Part shown: piece after piece, positions 28,100 through 53,748 of the stretch | Numbering within the stretch: position 1 is the stretch's first letter | How the letters are laid out: the number at the start of each line of letters is the position of its first letter | Assembly: GCF_000613885.1 (NCBI RefSeq) | Contig: NZ_BAJV01000011.1 | Span: 62,001 to 126,000, forward strand | DNA: 64,000 bases | Direction: 5' to 3' | DNA from: Asaia prunellae JCM 25354 | GTDB lineage: Bacteria; Pseudomonadota; Alphaproteobacteria; Acetobacterales; Acetobacteraceae | The notes under the pieces: generated by a model | The model's input: only the letters and a program-made list of their open reading frames with translations | Told to the model about the DNA's origin: nothing | The model's database searches: none | Program-made: the position numbers and the translations under genes

Positions 28100-28608
28100 C
28101 CGACGAAGCCCAGACCAAGAACCCGCCCAAGCGCTCGCGCACTGTCGCACGCGTTGCGGCCGTTCAGGCGTTGTTCCAGTGCGAACAGGGTGGTGAAAAC
28201 GCCGAAACGGTCATCAATCAGTTTCAGCGTCATCGTCTTGGGGGCAGCGTGGGCGACGGTTTTGAGGAAGGGTATGTTCCTGACGCCGACTTCCGTCTCT
28301 TTGGCCTTATCGTCAAAGGGACGACTCTTGCCCAGGATCGCATTGATCAGGCTCTTTTGGGCGCTCTGCCGACCAACTGGCCGCTATCGCGTCTTGACCC
28401 AGTGCTGCGTGCGCTTCTGCGCGCAGGGGTGTGGGAGCTGGGGGAGGATATTCCGTCACGCGTTGTGATCAACGAATATCTCGATGTGGCTCACGGTTTT
28501 TTCTCGGGTGATGAGGCTCGTCTTGTGAATGGTGTGCTTGACACGCTCAGCAAGGCCCGTGATGCCGGAAAAGACAGTGCGAAAGAGGGCGGAGCCGACG
28601 CTTCCTGA
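28096..28608 (+). CDS. nusB: Transcription antitermination factor NusB
   Basis: Binds boxA RNA with S10 and supports rRNA antitermination. The 170-residue protein shows the helical NusB fold: [16 protein letters not shown], the central [19 protein letters not shown], and the conserved end [13 protein letters not shown]-like stretch and [30 protein letters not shown]. The C-terminal 18 residues are a charged tail. It overlaps nrdR by 4 bases, and thiL starts 2 bases after its stop. Confidence 0.97.
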
Positions 28609-28609
28609 A

Positions 28610-29581
28610 ATGAGCGGCGGCGAATTCGACTTCATTGAGCGTTTCTTCAAGCCGCTTGCTGGCGAAGGAGCGCTTGGACTGAGCAACGACGCAGCGCTGT
28701 ATGAGGTGTCTCCTGACAGACAGCTGGTCCTCTCGACCGATACGCTTGTCGAGGCGGTGCATTTCCTGCCTGATGATCCGGCCGAGACGATCAGTCGCAA
28801 ATTGCTGCGTGTCAGCCTTTCCGATTGTGCAGCGATGGGGGCGGAACCGAAAGCCTATCTGCTGAACATCAGTCGCCCCAGTGCGTTTGATGACCAATGG
28901 TTTGCCAGTTTCAGCACGGGGCTTGCTCTTGATCAGGCACAATATGGTGTGCGGCTGCTCGGAGGTGACACCACGGGTACACGCGGTCCGCTTGTGCTGA
29001 GCCTTACTGTTCTGGGCGAGGTGGGACGCGGGAAGGCGGTCAGCCGCTCTGGTGCGCAGCCGGGCGACACTCTCTGGGTAACGGGGACAATCGGGGATTC
29101 GGCACTCGGATTGCAGGCTCTTCTGGGCGAGATCACCGATCCTGACGGGTATCTTGCGGCCCGTTATCGTATTCCCCAGCCTCGTGTCGGTTTTCCGCTC
29201 TCGGATTTTGCAAGCAGCGGCATGGATGTATCTGATGGGTTGATCCAGGATGCAGGGCATCTGGCCCATGAAAGCGGCGTGAAAATCGAGATTAATGCCT
29301 GTTCCGTGCCGCTATCCTCTCATGCCCGTGCGGCAGGCGTTGCCTGGTTTGAGACCTGTCTGACAGGCGGCGATGATTACGAACTTCTGTTTACGGCTCC
29401 CTGCGAGAAGACCGTGCAGATCAGGGAGGCCGGAAAAGCCTTTGGTCTGGCCGTCACGCCCATAGGGCGTGTGAGTGACGGACAGGGCGTGTCTCTGCTC
29501 GATGATGAGGGAGAGAAATGTCTCTTTCCCGCAAGGGCTGGCAACATTTCTGACCCTGACCGGGTCAGAACGGCCGGTTGA
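28610..29581 (+). CDS. thiL: Thiamine-monophosphate kinase
   Basis: Phosphorylates thiamine monophosphate to thiamine diphosphate, the cofactor of the pyruvate dehydrogenase E1 in this window. The ATG at 28610 gives MSGGEFDFIERFFKPLA and 323 residues; readings from upstream GTG codons overlap nusB. Motifs: LSTDTLVEAVHF, SDCAAMGAEP, GGDTTGTRGPLVLS, GMDVSDGLIQDAGHLA and TGGDDYELLFT. An 8-bp hairpin (29549-29569) lies inside its last codons, next to the convergent neighbour. Confidence 0.97.
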   Translation: MSGGEFDFIERFFKPLAGEGALGLSNDAALYEVSPDRQLVLSTDTLVEAVHFLPDDPAETISRKLLRVSLSDCAAMGAEPKAYLLNISRPSAFDDQWFASFSTGLALDQAQYGVRLLGGDTTGTRGPLVLSLTVLGEVGRGKAVSRSGAQPGDTLWVTGTIGDSALGLQALLGEITDPDGYLAARYRIPQPRVGFPLSDFASSGMDVSDGLIQDAGHLAHESGVKIEINACSVPLSSHARAAGVAWFETCLTGGDDYELLFTAPCEKTVQIREAGKAFGLAVTPIGRVSDGQGVSLLDDEGEKCLFPARAGNISDPDRVRTAG

Positions 29582-47190: not shown

Positions 47191-47787
47191 TCAGTCAGGC
47201 TGGCGCTGTATCGGTTTTTCCATGACGGCAGGGGACTTTGCCGAGATATGCCAGCTCCGCCAGCCATACAGGGCGATCACAATCAGTCCTGCATAGAGTC
47301 CTGCACTCAGCCATAGTCCGCGTTCGATGAACAGCATGATATAGGCGCCATCGACCAGGATCCAGAGCAGCCAGCAGGCCATGAATCGTTTCCCTGTCCA
47401 GATTTGTCCGACCACGCTGAGGACACTCAGCGTGGCGTCAGTCATGGGAGCAGCATCGCTCGTCCAGAGCCTCAGAAATGTTCCCAGAGTAAGGCTGCAC
47501 CAGCCGGCGATCAGGAGATCGCGCATTAGGATACGACCAGATGCGCGCTGCACGACAATTTCTGCCGTCACCAGACGCAGTTTATGCCACTCGTACCAGC
47601 CTTTGAGAATGAAGAGGCAGAAAACAAGCTGAAGAGCTGAGTCTGCGTAGAGTCGTGATCTTGCAAACACGACCAGATAGAGCAGGGAAGCCAGAAGCGA
47701 GCATGGCCATCCCAGAACGCGCCTGCGTGCCATGAGCCATATTCCCGTCATGGTGACAAGAACGGCCAGAGCTTCGACGGGCGACAT
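47191..47787 (-). CDS. PnuC-family vitamin transporter
   Basis: A 198-residue, probably seven-helix facilitator of the PnuC family, whose members carry nicotinamide riboside (PnuC), thiamine (PnuT) or riboflavin (PnuX). Hallmarks are GWPCSLLASLLYLVVFA, SRLYADSALQLVFCLF, LKGWYEWHK and the final GLYAGLIVIALYGWRSW. Substrate is not told by these motifs. Its ATG overlaps the kinase stop by one base (TAATG). A kinase upstream fits the family's trapping mechanism: facilitated diffusion, then phosphorylation. Confidence 0.9.
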   Translation of the reverse strand: MSPVEALAVLVTMTGIWLMARRRVLGWPCSLLASLLYLVVFARSRLYADSALQLVFCLFILKGWYEWHKLRLVTAEIVVQRASGRILMRDLLIAGWCSLTLGTFLRLWTSDAAPMTDATLSVLSVVGQIWTGKRFMACWLLWILVDGAYIMLFIERGLWLSAGLYAGLIVIALYGWRSWHISAKSPAVMEKPIQRQPD

Positions 47788-48967
47788 TATATGTCGGCTC
47801 TCTCTGGTTTGACGATACGGTTGAGCAATGATTTGCCTTCAGCCGTGCCAAACCATTGTGCGTGACCCAGAAGATAGGTTTCGTAGGTCGTTTTTGCGAG
47901 TTCAGGTGCGTTGAGAAGGGCCTGATAGTACCAGATTTCCGAACAGGCAAAGGTGATGTGAGCGAGAGGGAGAAAGGCCGCGATATCCTCGCGCTCCTGC
48001 ATCGTGAGAGGATGAGACCGTTCGTATCCGGCAAGGAAAGCCACGATCTGTTCTGGTTCGGTCCTGAAAAACGGAGGTGAATGCGCCAGAGTACGCCTTG
48101 GCTTCATCCAGTCGATCATGCTTCGTTCAAGTGCCACGGCGATATCGAAGCAGCGCGTCGTCTTGTCCGCCATGCTGAAATCGAAGACGGCACTAACTGT
48201 CTCCTTGCCTGATGGTCCTTGCCATATGAGATTTGATCCATACCAGTCGCCATGTCCCCATTGCAGCTCGGCACGGGCCAGAGAGGCTGTTGCGTTGCGG
48301 AACAAAGGCGTCAGTGTGGCCAGAATATCGTCAATATTTCCGTGGATCTCGACAGACTGCCTGAGGGCCGGATTGTCTTCTATCCATCTTTCAGACCTGT
48401 TTCCGGGCCGTGGCGATCAAGCAGGGGAATCACCGACGAGACGAGGGGGCGTGTTGAGCGGGACGGCGCATTCCAGCTTTGTGCCTTTTCGTGGAGGCAG
48501 GCCAGGGCATATCCGGCCTCCTGAGCATGATGACGCGTAAGATACGGTTCCCATGACAGGCGATCGCGATAAAGATCGTTTCCTCCGAGAGCGGGAAAGC
48601 ACTCATAGCACCATTCACCAAGGCTCAGGCTGGTCTTTCCCGATGATGCCTCCAATGGGCAGGCAACGGAGAGACCCTGTCCGGCAAGGTGGGCGATCAG
48701 ATCATGTTCCTCTGCCAGAGCTGATTCATCACGCAGGAAGCGATGGTGACGTTTGAGAAACCAGTTCTTTCCGTCGCAATCGCTCAGACGCGAGACTGCG
48801 GAGAATGGTCGTGCACTGTGCCATTCGATGGGGGTGATATCAGGCAGATCAAACGCTGCCAGAACAAGAGATGCCTCGTCCTGTGTGATCAGCGGCCAGT
48901 CACGCTTTGTCTCTCTGCCCCAAAGCCCGAATTGACCAGGTGAGGTGAGCTTTGGCCTTACTGACAT
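47787..48967 (-). CDS. APH/choline-kinase-fold small-molecule kinase (frameshift)
   Basis: Predicted ATP-dependent phosphotransferase. The catalytic loop is HGDWYGSNLI and the metal-binding segment VFDFSMADKTTRCFDIA; the N-lobe has NWFLKRHHRFLRDESALAEEHD. The frame breaks near 48387 where GATGGAT should be GATTGGAT; one restored T joins LKDWIEDNPALRQ and gives 393 residues. It starts overlapping the receptor stop (TGATG) and ends overlapping pnuC, so the three genes are translationally coupled. By analogy with thiamine kinase (same fold) and PnuT it may trap a vitamin, but thiamine, riboside or another substrate is open. Confidence 0.8.
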
Positions 48968-51347
48968 CAGAAACCGGCGGTTGCAGTTGCAAGAGCCGAG
49001 AATCCGCCCCCGATATAATAGTCAGGAGATGACCCTGCGATGGTTGTGCCATAACGACCAGTGGTATTCCTGGCATTCAGTGTGGGGTCCGCCACGCCTG
49101 AAAGATAATGTTCATTGGTGATGTTGATCAGGTTGAGGCGCAGAGAGGGCGCCTTGAGGCGCTTGAGGTCGGAGAAGCGATAACCGATTGCAAGATCACC
49201 GGTTGTACGATCGCTTATCCGTTGGTCATTTATGAATGTTGAATACTGCCGACCGGTATAATGCACTGAGGCAAACCCGAAAACATGACCGTCATCATAA
49301 GTCAGACCAGCCGAAGCCTGCAGGCTTGGGCTACGAACTGCGATCTTGCCTCGTGTCGGGAGCAGATCGCCATTGCTGGCAATATCATTGTCGATCGTGG
49401 CGTGGAGATATTCGCCGGAGAGGTAGGGTGCAAAATGATGCCAGGGCCTTAGGCCAAGCTCGATGTCAATGCCTCGTGAAGTCTGCCCACCTGCATTGAT
49501 GGTCGAGGAAATCGGTGTGTTGTTGATCTGGATCTGGGTTTCGATCTGGCGGTTCGTGAAATTGTAATTGAAGAAGGTCAGGCTGCCCGTTACGAGCGGC
49601 CCGGTATAACGATAGCCCAGTTCCTCGGAAATCGAGTATTCGTTGCGGAGACTGGTTGCACCATTTGTGCTGGTTTCACCGCTGGTAGGATCATACACGT
49701 TGTAGAGTGCGGTGAAAGAAGGGGCACGAAAATTGGTTGTGGCATTCAGGAAGACTGGTGCTGTGGCGTGATCTGAAAACGCATACCAAGACGGGGCAGG
49801 GGTACCGCGCTGTTGCTGCCGACATGATATTGTGGTCCCGGTACGGCGTTGGTGCCTGTCCGGTTGACCATGACTTCCTTGAAGCCGAGTTCGATGAGCA
49901 TACGATCCGAAAGAAAACTCATCCGGTCACCGATGAACAGTGCATTGGTCATACTGATCGTATGATTGTCGCCCGCCAGATACACGCTGCCATTGGAAAG
50001 CCTGACGAAATTACGTGTGCCGCTGCCCCAGATGTTGGCGGATGTTCCGTTTGTGCTAATCGGGGAGAATGACTGTACTTCGTGATCGTCGCCATAGTCG
50101 AACCAATAACCGAGAATGAGCTCGTTCCAGCTCTTTTTCCAGACGAGTTCAGAAGTGAAGCCGGAGCGGGTGCTACGCTGCGTGTAATTCGCACGTACCA
50201 GAGCCTGACCATCCTGTGTGCTGGGCAGGGTAAGCGTATCACTGAGTGGTTGTGTACCCGTGTAAAGATCCGTAAGTGGCAGTGTCGAGCCGCTGGGCAC
50301 ATTACCGTAAGCGCCTTGTGCATAAGGTGTCGCCCGCAAGGTGATGTGGTCGGTCAGGGCCAGGTTCACAGGCGCACCCATGTATAGTGTGCGCTCGGGT
50401 GCACGCCACAAGCGCTGGTAATCCTGAGCCTCGTCCGGGTTCTGTGGATCGTACCGGCTGTTCAGAGCATTGCCTGCCGAGACGCCATATTGTCTGAAAA
50501 GATCTTTTGTAACCTGCGGGTAGTAACTCGTGACTGTACTGTTGAAGCTTCCGACAAGAGCTGCATGCGATTGTTCGCCGATATCGCGGACGAGTTTGAA
50601 ATCGATATGATGCCGCATGTCATGACCGGGGCTACGCCAGTTTTCGGCACTGGTGTGAGAATAGGAGACAAAACCGCGTAATCCTGTGTGCCCTATCAGA
50701 CCGGTATCGAACCGGATGAACTCACGGTTGCTGTTATAGGAGCCATACGAAGCTTCGACCATGCCACCTGCCTTGCGCGCAGGATCGCGAAAGCTCAGAC
50801 TCATCAACCCGCCTGCAGCATTCAGAACGGGGCTGTCCAGATCAGCAGCGCCCTGGCTCAGCGCTACCTGACGATAGTTCTCGCCATCGGCAAACTGGCT
50901 GGGATAGCCGGAATAGAAAGCCAGATCGTTGAGCGGCATGCCTTCCAGCACATAGCCAATTGAATCCGTGTTCAACCCGCGCACTGAGATTGTGGTCTGC
51001 GGTGATAACCCCATCGCATCCGACGCTGCGACATTGGCACCAGGCAATAGCGATACCAGCTGATAGGCGGTGGCGATGGGAGCCTGTTTGGCGATGAAGG
51101 TACTATCGACACTACTGACCGAGCGGATCTCATGCTGAGCCCGTATCAGCCCGCCACCACGTTCGGCATTGCGTTTCTCGGGTTCAGTTGCCCGAACGGT
51201 AATATGTTCGCTCTTTTTCTGCCTGGCTGATCCTTCAGCTGCCTCTGCGCTCATCCAGGAGATCATGTAGAGCGTCGAGATCGTGGAGAGAAGCCAGAAC
51301 CGTCTGACCGATCGATGCGAGCAAGCCAAAGCGTGTGCCAATGTCAT
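48967..51347 (-). CDS. TonB-dependent outer-membrane receptor (frameshift)
   Basis: Energy-coupled outer-membrane uptake channel. The ATG 51347 gives a long signal peptide (n-region with RSVRRF, core WLLSTISTLYMISWM, AEAAEG); 51401 is an alternative start inside a hairpin. The plug domain has TAYQLVSLLPGANV and TISVRGLNTDSIGYVLEGMPL. The barrel ends in Phe. The frame breaks near 49755, after ITPQHQ, where CAGTC should be CAGGTC; restoring one G gives VFLNATTNFRAPSFTALYN and about 793 residues. Coupled to the kinase and pnuC, it should import the same substrate across the outer membrane. Confidence 0.87.
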
Positions 51348-51359
51348 GATCCAGTTATG

Positions 51360-51414
51360 AAAAAACGATAGGGCACGCCCCTGTATGAGAGCAGTTCTCA
51401 TATCCTCGCTATCG
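51360..51414 (-). promoter_or_regulatory. Terminator-like structured leader before the TonB-receptor gene
   Basis: On the minus strand, CGATAG (51414-51409) and CTATCG (51371-51366) can pair and are followed at once by six T, ending 13 bases before the ATG 51347. Inside lies a perfect 7-bp hairpin (TATGAGA/TCTCATA, 51384-51402) and a second one around GGGGCGTGCCC. It looks like an intrinsic terminator placed to attenuate the operon. Further upstream, 51415-51712, I see no gene and no known riboswitch core. Confidence 0.45.
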
Positions 51415-51694
51415 AAACAATCGAATTTCCATTCTTTCTGTCGTGAGATGAAGCAGAAACCCTCTCTTCTTTCTCAGGAAAGCGATGGGATCGCGTGTTT
51501 CTGGATCTCGCCCTACTCGATAGTGTCTCGTTTTGTCGGTAGGATGAGTACCAGTCTTCGGAGAAAACTGTTCCGCAGAATCTGCACAAGGCGTTTTTCT
51601 GTATTTCGGTGAATTCTGACGATCGCATGGTAACTGAAAAACAAGATTTCTCCCCTGCCAGCCGTAAAAAAGCGTTTCAGGGAGAGGCCAGAAA

Positions 51695-52317
51695 CCTGAG
51701 GAGAATGGTGGGATGCTCGATCCGGATATTGCCCGATATGTCGAGAACTGGGTGATCAAGACCCCGGCTGATCCGACGCCGCGTCGCGTTTCGTCACAAG
51801 ATCGGACTTTGATTGAGTGGATTCTGCAAGAGCAGGCAGGAAAGACGCGTGATGAGGCGATCAAGGCCCTTGACGCCTCATTCGCCGGATGGATCGTGCA
51901 GCGGGGCAGGGGCCAAAGACCCTCGGCTTTGAATGAAACTGATTTTCTGGCTCTGTGCGCTCTTCTGCCCGAGCCTGAAAAACCTTCTCATAGTGAGGCA
52001 GTTCCGGAGCGAGGGCCTCGCTGCGCTCAGCTCGATCCTGAGGAAAATGGTGGGACGCCCAAGCTGGATATTGCCCGATATGTCGAGGATTGGGTGATCA
52101 AGACTCCGGCTGATCCGGTGCCGCGCCGTGTTTCGTTACAAGATCGGACTTTTATTGAGTGGATTTTGCAAGAGCAGGCAGGAAAGACGCGTGATGGGGC
52201 GATCAAGGCCCTTGACGCTTCATTCGCCGGGTGGATCGTGCAGCGGTGCAGGGGCCAAAGACCTTCGCCTCTGAATGAAACTGATTTTCTGGCTTTGTGC
52301 GCTCTTCTGCCCGAGCC
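51695..52317 (+). repeat. Tandem duplication, 342-bp period, inside an orphan gene
   Basis: Positions 51695-51975 and 52037-52317 match almost base for base at a constant offset of 342. The linker of copy 1 (51971-52036) recurs at 52418-52480, after an extra 100 bp that is unique to copy 2. Copy 1 begins 18 bases upstream of the start codon, so the duplicated unit includes the leader CCTGAGGA-AATGGTGGGA. High identity implies a recent event. Confidence 0.95.
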
Positions 52318-52513
52318 AGGGATACGTGCGCCTGAGGACGTGGTTACTTCCGGGGAGACCGGGATTCCCCACACTATCGTGACAGAGCCTCAGAAGAATG
52401 AACCGGCAGCCCCTTCCGAGCCTGAAAAAACCCATAGTGAGGAGGTTCCGGAGCGAGGGCCTCGCTACGCTCAGCTCGATATGGCGCTTTTTCATCTGGA
52501 GTACGGTGTCTGA
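51713..52513 (+). CDS. Orphan protein made of two near-identical repeats
   Basis: A 266-residue soluble protein that I do not recognise. Two repeats of about 94 residues start DIARYVENWVIKTPADP and DIARYVEDWVIKTPADP and each run through RRVS, DRTLIEWILQEQAGKTRD, IKALDASFAGWIVQR and NETDFLALCALLPEP. A Pro/Glu-rich linker with PERGPRxAQLD follows each. There is no signal peptide or membrane segment. Most repeat differences are single substitutions. The predicted alpha-helical repeat with a conserved WI/WIVQR core could be a small DNA- or protein-binding module. ATG 51713 has GGAG 10 bases upstream. Confidence 0.75.
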   Translation: MLDPDIARYVENWVIKTPADPTPRRVSSQDRTLIEWILQEQAGKTRDEAIKALDASFAGWIVQRGRGQRPSALNETDFLALCALLPEPEKPSHSEAVPERGPRCAQLDPEENGGTPKLDIARYVEDWVIKTPADPVPRRVSLQDRTFIEWILQEQAGKTRDGAIKALDASFAGWIVQRCRGQRPSPLNETDFLALCALLPEPGIRAPEDVVTSGETGIPHTIVTEPQKNEPAAPSEPEKTHSEEVPERGPRYAQLDMALFHLEYGV

Positions 52514-52543
52514 TCCCTGATCCCTGATCAGTGGCTGACAGGC

Positions 52544-52563
52544 AGCTGACGCGTCTGTCAGCT
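52544..52563. terminator. Hairpin shared by convergent genes
   Basis: AGCTGAC and GTCAGCT pair over 7 bp with a 6-nt loop, overlapping the MFS stop codon. A second reading, GCTGACAG with CTGTCAGC, gives an alternative longer stem (52534-52562). Just before it lies a small TGATCCC tandem repeat. No T-run. Confidence 0.45.
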
Positions 52564-53748
52564 CGATTGAATATTATCAGTGGCAGCCAGATCGCGTCGT
52601 TGCAAGGTCATAACGAGAACAAGGCCGACTATTGCGCAGGCCATGCCCATCAGGAAGATGGATTTGTAGCCCAGACAGTCAGAAAGCGTTCCTGCGATTG
52701 GTCCGCTTACGGCATAGGAGAGGTCCTGAAACGCAGCAAATCCCCCTAGCGCCGTGGCCCGGATAGATGCGGGTACACGCTTGACGACTTCGACGCCCAT
52801 CGAAGGGTAGATCAGCGAACACCCTGCACCCGTCAGCACTGCTCCCACCAGAGCCAGAACCGGCGAGGGTGCGAACGCGATACAGCCCTGACCCAGGGCC
52901 TCGATCGTGAGGGAGAGCATGGCAACCCGAATACCGCCCATATGCTCTGGCAGATGGCCGCAGAATATACGCCCTGCAACGAAGGCCAGACCGAAGCAGG
53001 TCAGGCCCAGACTGCCGAAACGCCAGTGTTCGGCAAGGAAGTAGACCGAGAGAAACGCACCCAGCACGGCGAATCCGACACCCTGCAAGGCAACCACCAT
53101 ACCGTAGGGGCGAATAACACCGAGAACAGGCCAGAAGGATTCGCGCTTTCCTGCCAGAATGGGGGCCGCGGGTACGCCCTGGACGATGGCGAGACCGACA
53201 AGAGGCAATATGATGCAGATGGCCATCAGGCTGGAGAAGCCGGCGAGATGATAAAGGCTGAGCCCGATTGGGCCACCGAAGGCGAAAGCACCATACATGG
53301 CTGCCCCCGTCCAAGTGAGCACTTTTCCCGCGCCTTGAGGGCCGGTCAGTCCGATGCCCCAGCCATGCATGCCGACAAGCGTATAGCTTTCCCCAACGCC
53401 AAGCAGAAGACGCCCGATAATCAGAAGACCGAAAGAAGCGGATCTCGGGAACAGATCGAGTGCAGAAAGCAGACATATGGCACTTGCAAGTGCGTACAGG
53501 ATCAATCCCAGACGCATTGCATTGCGTCCACCTTTATGGTCGGCAAATCCTCCGGCAAGCGTGCGGGTCAGAATAGTCGAGACGAATGCGCAGCCTACAG
53601 CGACGCCTGCAATACCATTGCCATAACCGGGCCATGAGGTGATGAAGGGGGGGATGACTGCCAGGGGCATGGCTACGGCCATATAGGAAAGAACGAGTGC
53701 AATGGTCAGCGCAGGCAGATGCCTGAAGGAACTATCTTTGTCGGTCAT
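52558..53748 (-). CDS. MFS transporter (YhhS/YfcJ-like)
   Basis: A 396-residue 12-helix major facilitator. The loop 2-3 motif is GGFADHKGGRNAMRLG, with the repeated second-half equivalent GRIFCGHLPEHMGG. The general plan and the ending ALGGFAAFQDLSYAVSGPIAG resemble the YhhS/YfcJ exporter group (arabinose or drug efflux family members); substrate is unknown. The ATG at 53748 is preceded by a 15-bp inverted repeat about 44 bp upstream. It converges on the orphan repeat gene. Confidence 0.87.
   Translation of the reverse strand: MTDKDSSFRHLPALTIALVLSYMAVAMPLAVIPPFITSWPGYGNGIAGVAVGCAFVSTILTRTLAGGFADHKGGRNAMRLGLILYALASAICLLSALDLFPRSASFGLLIIGRLLLGVGESYTLVGMHGWGIGLTGPQGAGKVLTWTGAAMYGAFAFGGPIGLSLYHLAGFSSLMAICIILPLVGLAIVQGVPAAPILAGKRESFWPVLGVIRPYGMVVALQGVGFAVLGAFLSVYFLAEHWRFGSLGLTCFGLAFVAGRIFCGHLPEHMGGIRVAMLSLTIEALGQGCIAFAPSPVLALVGAVLTGAGCSLIYPSMGVEVVKRVPASIRATALGGFAAFQDLSYAVSGPIAGTLSDCLGYKSIFLMGMACAIVGLVLVMTLQRRDLAATDNIQSS

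Follow-up and report, generated by a model that had tools for sequence, protein, structure and literature searches.

A 64,000-nucleotide stretch of the Asaia prunellae JCM 25354 draft genome (the window; G000:C28:62001-126000 of an assembly of 3.18 Mb in 38 contigs) carries three adjoining genes on its minus strand. From open reading frames (ORFs) and Pfam matches, they encode in order a TonB-dependent receptor, an APH-fold kinase that we call KIN, and a PnuC-family protein. Comparison with related genomes makes it very probable that this operon is a thiamine (vitamin B1) uptake-and-trap system in which a receptor, a PnuT-like facilitator and KIN together provide thiamine phosphate to ThiL. 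The receptor would carry thiamine across the outer membrane, and the PnuT-like PnuC protein would let it equilibrate across the inner membrane. KIN would then phosphorylate thiamine to thiamine monophosphate, which could not leave the cell and which ThiL would turn into thiamine pyrophosphate (TPP). In Asaia, where ThiC is present too, the operon would serve for salvage and has no TPP riboswitch of its own. We favor this reading because TPP riboswitches and thiamine genes occur at the loci of relatives, ThiL is kept in genomes lacking ThiC and a good ThiE, the PnuC protein has a WxxWxxxD motif, and the kinase motifs are conserved. A first-pass annotation made from the sequence alone had proposed vitamin uptake and trapping, and the TPP riboswitches and thiamine genes of relatives lend support to that idea. 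Given the lack of a TPP riboswitch, it had left the substrate open among several vitamins or a new compound; thiamine has gained ground from the TPP riboswitch at the same operon in relatives, and there is little to favor nicotinamide riboside or riboflavin.

The domains and gene order given in that annotation were confirmed. All pieces of the operon lie on the minus strand. The receptor is represented by an N-terminal piece at 49746..51401 (551 aa, covering the plug and the start of the barrel; PF07715, 2.5e-07) and a C-terminal barrel piece at 48967..49698 (243 aa; PF00593, 2e-20), such that plug and beta-barrel domains are both present, one on each piece. KIN is similarly divided into an N-terminal piece at 48380..48967 (PF01636, 4.6e-07) and a C-terminal piece at 47787..48305 (PF01636, 1.1e-08), the latter containing the motifs WGHGDW(Y)GSN and DFSMAD. 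The PnuC-family gene at 47191..47787 is intact (198 aa; PF04973, 7.4e-38). Overlaps of 1-4 bases had been reported between the genes. They exist, and both measure exactly 1 base: the KIN start overlaps the receptor stop in TGATG at 48967, and the PnuC start overlaps the KIN stop in TAATG at 47787. On the other hand, receptor and kinase had each been taken for a single gene, and the two frameshifts had gone unnoticed. Alignment to the proteins of Asaia sp. W19 (receptor 796 aa, kinase 409 aa) equates the N-terminal receptor piece with residues 1-534 and the C-terminal frame with residues 535-796, with the frame break near 49755. For KIN, the N-terminal piece equals residues 1-197 of the W19 kinase and the C-terminal piece residues 192-403, the second frame aligning from about 48407 and the break falling within about 48389-48407. 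Both genes are open in the Asaia relatives L003, L004 and L020, and the intact versions in A. krungthepensis are 817 aa (receptor) and 408 aa (kinase) long.

Relatives of PnuC were detected in 14 of 60 genomes searched, including all nine Asaia genomes, and the best matches to the window protein among named genomes were in Asaia astilbis, Asaia sp. W19 and Asaia krungthepensis. Receptor and kinase genes stand beside PnuC in every one of the nine Asaia loci and also in G016, G030, G033 and G017, and are not found beside the more distant PnuC of G039 (L002 and L029 in this locus comparison are one genome). Among 249 Acetobacteraceae genomes, KIN was found in 36 at 1e-20, PnuC over its cut-off in 35, and the two together in 32 (Fisher p 1.6e-32, a value that ignores shared ancestry). 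The distance between them is at most 120 bp in 31 of the 32 and 443 bp in the remaining one, and the linkage is beyond chance. A receptor gene adjoins in 30 of these genomes, which we refer to as trio genomes. In a class-wide draw of 385 genomes, five of them Acetobacteraceae and with up to four candidates scored per genome, KIN was detected at 1e-25 in two, the window's own and G291, both Acetobacteraceae. In G555, KIN and PnuC occur twice, once in an intact trio and once in a copy that looks broken (L121:8857-10359), and the KIN of G513 also looks broken.

TPP riboswitches were searched for in the 39 genomes with KIN or PnuC, and one was found before the receptor gene in 15 of the 36 KIN genomes (14 by operon coordinates, the fifteenth being G515). 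Twelve of the 30 trio genomes have a riboswitch of 67.7-77.5 bits, always over the Rfam gathering score of 54.3 bits, and in all 12 the first aligned residue of the receptor lies 126-378 bp downstream. The loci orthologous to the Asaia operon thus provide the thiamine context by which a PnuT is recognized. The elements of G440 (51.1 bits) and G469 (43.0 bits), between KIN and the receptor, and of G515 (50.5 bits), before the receptor on a separate contig, fall below the cut-off with E of 7e-7 or better. On the kinase tree, at least three changes are required to explain the riboswitch label, with Asaia and G016 forming a clade without it. This tree, drawn only for label clustering, has 36 rows, with SrkA on a very long branch, one genome entered twice (as G004 and L004) and G515 represented by a fragment; it excludes the broken or split KIN genes of G513, G566 and the window. 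The pattern fits an ancestral riboswitch that was lost several times, or perhaps independent gains.

The Asaia operons themselves are different in this respect. In all nine Asaia genomes, the search matched a single TPP riboswitch, located before thiC (at G000:C32:92538-92677 in the window genome). On this result the operon of the window genome does not count as a member of the TPP regulon. These thiC elements score 41-44 bits and are missed at the gathering threshold because they lie under it, so annotation at that threshold would overlook the TPP riboswitch in the genus. No Rfam family reached its gathering score anywhere in the window, in the PnuC loci of 13 relatives, in 9 thiC loci or in 2 nadA loci, and a permissive scan of 50900-52600 found no TPP element, which agrees with the earlier statement that the operon has none. 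According to the passages available from PMC5756330, Gluconobacter oxydans 621H resembles Asaia in that its one listed TPP riboswitch precedes the ThiC gene.

Seven genomes contain KIN or PnuC without the other, and in six of them the genes that replace the missing partner are linked to thiamine, the seventh being G009. KIN without PnuC occurs in G440, G469, G515 and G009. For the first three, the receptor gene is followed by one for an NMT1/THI5-type binding protein (PF09084; 2.8e-51, 2e-52 and 4.9e-52, respectively), and an ABC permease gene precedes KIN in G440 and G469. G009 (L112:7230-10185) has an ABC ATPase gene near KIN, with no receptor found beside KIN and no PnuC nearby. A TPP riboswitch is present on another contig of this genome. 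PnuC without KIN occurs in G421, G504 and G439. Loci of G504 (L138:3105-6357) and G421 (L139:2566-6590) have a TPP riboswitch, a TonB receptor gene, and then one or two TenA-family genes (PF03070), whose products start with what by eye resembles a signal peptide. Both genomes keep ThiE, lack ThiC and have no KIN at 1e-20. ThiG was seen in G421, which has a further TPP riboswitch before a PnuC gene and another before genes including ThiG and ThiE. This gene content suggests salvage of the thiamine pyrimidine with TenA acting outside the inner membrane. The G439 locus (L117:2444-9187) has a thiaminase-I-like gene between the TonB receptor and PnuC, with genes for ThiM and a luciferase-like monooxygenase nearby. 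The role of PnuC is least clear in this genome because the protein is the closest in our sample to the enteric PnuC model, has a tyrosine in place of the D or N of the motif described below, and the only TPP riboswitch is at thiC.

The thiamine pathway genes of these organisms point in the same direction. The ThiL (thiamine-monophosphate kinase) gene of the window, at 28529..29581 on the plus strand and not linked to the operon, encodes AIRS domains and matches TIGR01379 over its cut-off (2.9e-88, at G000:C28:90619-91542), and ThiL is over the cut-off in all 39 genomes with KIN or PnuC. Ten of the 39, among them 8 of the 36 KIN genomes, have no ThiC, and in G596 it is broken. The ThiE family is generally represented by a strong copy of at least 121 bits (85 bits, in pieces, in G596), often together with a weaker paralogue of at most 75 bits. 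However, the ThiE match is weak, at 26-63 bits, in five KIN genomes (G424, G459, G469, G523 and G627), all of which are without ThiC; G469 is the less sure member of this group, having a ThiE match of 63 bits in an assembly that is 94% complete. With ThiL but no ThiC and a weak ThiE, these five genomes should obtain thiamine monophosphate neither through the pyrimidine branch nor through the coupling step, and ThiL would have to be supplied in some other way than by de novo synthesis. One would expect them either to have a kinase acting on thiamine or to import its monophosphate; the kinase that the TPP-controlled locus encodes is KIN.

The window PnuC scores 130.7 bits against PF04973 (cut-off 27.3), and its predicted structure has 7 helices (mean pLDDT 66) and matches PnuC 4qtn with a TMq of 0.73. 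It shares the WxxWxxxD motif with the PnuC proteins of all 12 TPP-controlled trio genomes, where E. coli PnuC has WxxWxxxN. This D/N position presumably bears on substrate choice. From the genomic context we infer that the protein has a PnuT-like thiamine specificity. The receptor has no PDB relative at 1e-6 and matches only generic siderophore-, heme- and FecA-type models below cut-off. With no specific sequence match, its substrate rests on context.

All 12 intact KIN relatives and both window pieces match PF01636, the APH phosphotransferase superfamily, and the catalytic HGDxxxxN and DFG-like motifs are invariant or nearly so in the 12. An attempt to name KIN from its sequence failed, the PDB matches being weak and mixed and the NCBIfam models far below cut-off. 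A search of PDB sequences returned four matches at 0.01, with amicoumacin kinase first (E 2.9e-4) and YihE/SrkA and a homoserine kinase also present, and the 12 KIN members matched 5 NCBIfam models at 1e-3, the best of which were of the homoserine kinase and SrkA type. Profile comparison with SrkA gave an hhalign probability of 95 (E 2.7e-8). A three-sequence structural model of KIN reached a mean pLDDT of 62, with residues 235-283, which contain the catalytic motif, under 50; a fold search with this low-confidence model found APH-type kinases best, amicoumacin kinase first. KIN looks like a thiamine kinase that is not matched to the known ones. A broader proposal in our estimate falls somewhat short of an even chance. 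It holds that KIN founds a further non-orthologous family of thiamine kinases, neither ThiK nor pyrophosphokinase, and that different lineages equip one TPP-regulated TonB/PnuC chassis with different trapping partners. The partner would be KIN for whole thiamine, an exported TenA freeing the pyrimidine outside the inner membrane in G421 and G504, and in G439 an exported protein resembling thiaminase I, paired with ThiM, for use of the thiazole.

Several observations weigh against the assignment of the operon to thiamine uptake and trapping. None of the nine Asaia genomes has a TPP riboswitch at the operon, nor was one found there in 18 of the 30 trio genomes (a count that includes G422, whose contig ends inside the receptor gene and which cannot be judged). 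All nine Asaia genomes also have ThiC, and the need for uptake is not evident in them; with ThiC present, the operon would there be a salvage supplement. The receptor is not universal either, as in G429 (L123) and G505 (L151) KIN and PnuC are adjacent with no TonB receptor matched beside KIN. G437 and G513 have N instead of D in the PnuC motif, as does one of the two G421 copies. With E. coli ThiK (L132), KIN aligned by hhalign over 13 columns at a probability of 0.3, which amounts to a short motif and not to ThiK-type homology over the domain. The TenA proteins of G421 and G504 score 109-121 bits with the thiaminase II model, below its cut-off of 130, and the thiaminase-I-like protein of G439 matches TIGR04541 at 1.3e-11 and 44 bits (cut-off 175) with no Pfam match. 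Furthermore, in the five auxotroph genomes the search for thiamine enzymes covered ThiC, ThiE and ThiL, which leaves room for a pyrophosphokinase, ThiK or another kinase. Finally, the receptor and kinase genes are each split by a frameshift in the window sequence. This last point raises the possibility that the operon is decaying in this strain, with receptor and kinase as pseudogenes and PnuC alone still open, and the broken-looking copies in G513 and G555 fit such a process. We consider it unlikely. Comparison of the window over its full length with ORFs from a neighboring Asaia genome (G003) gave 53 matches (probably including some antisense ORFs, which are not genes), and 15 of them, both operon genes included, are frame-split; gene calls based on reading frame should accordingly be treated with caution in this draft. 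AlaS itself is split in two other Asaia drafts, and the pieces in the window keep 46-84% identity to the W19 proteins along with the kinase motifs. The frame breaks are probably draft indels.

The remaining alternatives concern what is transported and what KIN phosphorylates. Pyrimidine salvage in known systems is associated with binding proteins of the THI5/NMT1 type and with TenA, and TPP riboswitches control uptake of precursors as well as of thiamine. The system could on these grounds import the pyrimidine or the thiazole half of thiamine (HMP or HET), with KIN phosphorylating that half instead of thiamine, and the strong ThiE matches kept by G440, G515 and G009, all without ThiC, would suit such a pathway. 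In the five KIN genomes without a good ThiE, however, phosphorylating one half would lead nowhere, and G421 and G504, which look like pyrimidine salvagers with their TenA-type genes, ThiE and no ThiC, are the very genomes without KIN at the threshold used. Import of a thiamine half is therefore quite improbable in our view. Uptake of another vitamin, nicotinamide riboside or riboflavin, is suggested by the score of the window PnuC, 67.6 bits, against the NCBIfam model of the PnuC that transports nicotinamide riboside (cut-off 42.45), but the PnuC proteins of G421 and G504 pass that cut-off too, in genomes that appear to salvage thiamine. NadA is present in all nine Asaia genomes, and riboswitches of any class were absent at gathering score from the window and from the PnuC loci of the 13 relatives. 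Together with the TPP riboswitches at the operon in other relatives and a PnuC pocket motif unlike that of E. coli PnuC, this makes another vitamin very unlikely. The least credible alternative makes KIN a detoxifying kinase, such as a phosphotransferase that inactivates antibiotics, whose place beside transport genes is due to chance. The proximity of KIN to PnuC in 31 of 32 genomes and the riboswitch control in relatives argue otherwise. The first-pass annotation had considered that a kinase grouping with antibiotic phosphotransferases would refute the uptake system, and here the results are divided. Amicoumacin kinase is indeed first in both the PDB and the fold searches, but E. coli YihE/SrkA and a homoserine kinase appear in both as well, the best family models, far below cut-off, are of the latter two types, and no antibiotic-kinase NCBIfam model matches any of the 12 KIN members at 1e-3. 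This comparison consists of family-model, PDB sequence and fold searches, with no tree including reference kinases.

Thiamine uptake and trapping thus remains the preferred explanation for the three genes, and the neighboring genes do not appear to belong to the unit. A GtrA gene (PF04138) follows the trio, as previously annotated, and then AlaS. Both were considered as parts of the unit and rejected, as they adjoin the trio in Asaia, G016, G437 and G513 and are unmatched in the other loci compared. Upstream of the operon, a divergent gene at 51713-52513 has counterparts in the same position in other Asaia loci. Its translation contains a visible internal duplication, and no Pfam family matches it at 1e-5.

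The genes of this operon are candidates for the thiamine uptake step in acetic acid bacteria, with KIN as a candidate new thiamine kinase that here matches only generic kinase models. The case also illustrates how relatives that have a riboswitch may reveal the substrate of an operon that lacks one. No description of this operon or kinase was found in the literature searched (most subscription papers, including Rodionov 2002, which may list related loci, were outside its reach). Insect-associated acetic acid bacteria vary in thiamine production, which affects their fly hosts, according to the portions of PMC8474910 and PMC5845000 available. The words TonB, riboswitch, pnuC and transporter are absent from the main text of PMC8474910, and thiamine uptake by non-producing Gluconobacter strains seems not to be covered there.

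The proposed reaction of KIN, from thiamine to thiamine monophosphate and on to ThiL, is that of E. coli ThiK, which we take to be a member of the APH superfamily. Unlike ThiK, with which it shares only the 13-column motif, KIN is closer to SrkA. PnuT works by metabolic trapping. The proposed likeness of the window PnuC to PnuT is drawn from genomic context and comprises the PnuC family, an occasional association with TPP riboswitches, and facilitated diffusion (the last by a title cited in PMC7749635). Passages of the same article state that specificities in the PnuC family are predictable from riboswitch class. TonB receptors encoded near the PnuT gene, a PnuC-family thiamin transporter gene, were predicted for thiamin and are unproven in PMC2771747. 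The arrangement is the same here, and the passages concerned mention neither an APH kinase nor Acetobacteraceae. The most similar arrangement is in Bacteroides, where, in the sections of PMC5613172 consulted, OMthi, pnuT and tnr3 form one operon with TPP riboswitches in most genomes. Loss of either transporter from a B. thetaiotaomicron biosynthesis mutant raised its thiamine requirement about tenfold, and the transport operon transcripts did not respond to thiamine (PMC5613172). Both systems combine a TonB receptor, a PnuC-family transporter and an enzyme that phosphorylates thiamine (in our case predicted), with TPP riboswitches that on our side are found in relatives. They differ in that the trapping enzyme of Bacteroides, Tnr3, pyrophosphorylates, whereas the APH-fold kinase would make monophosphate for ThiL, and in that the Asaia operon has no riboswitch. 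With no riboswitch in Asaia and a different kinase, the operon is nevertheless of Bacteroides-like architecture.

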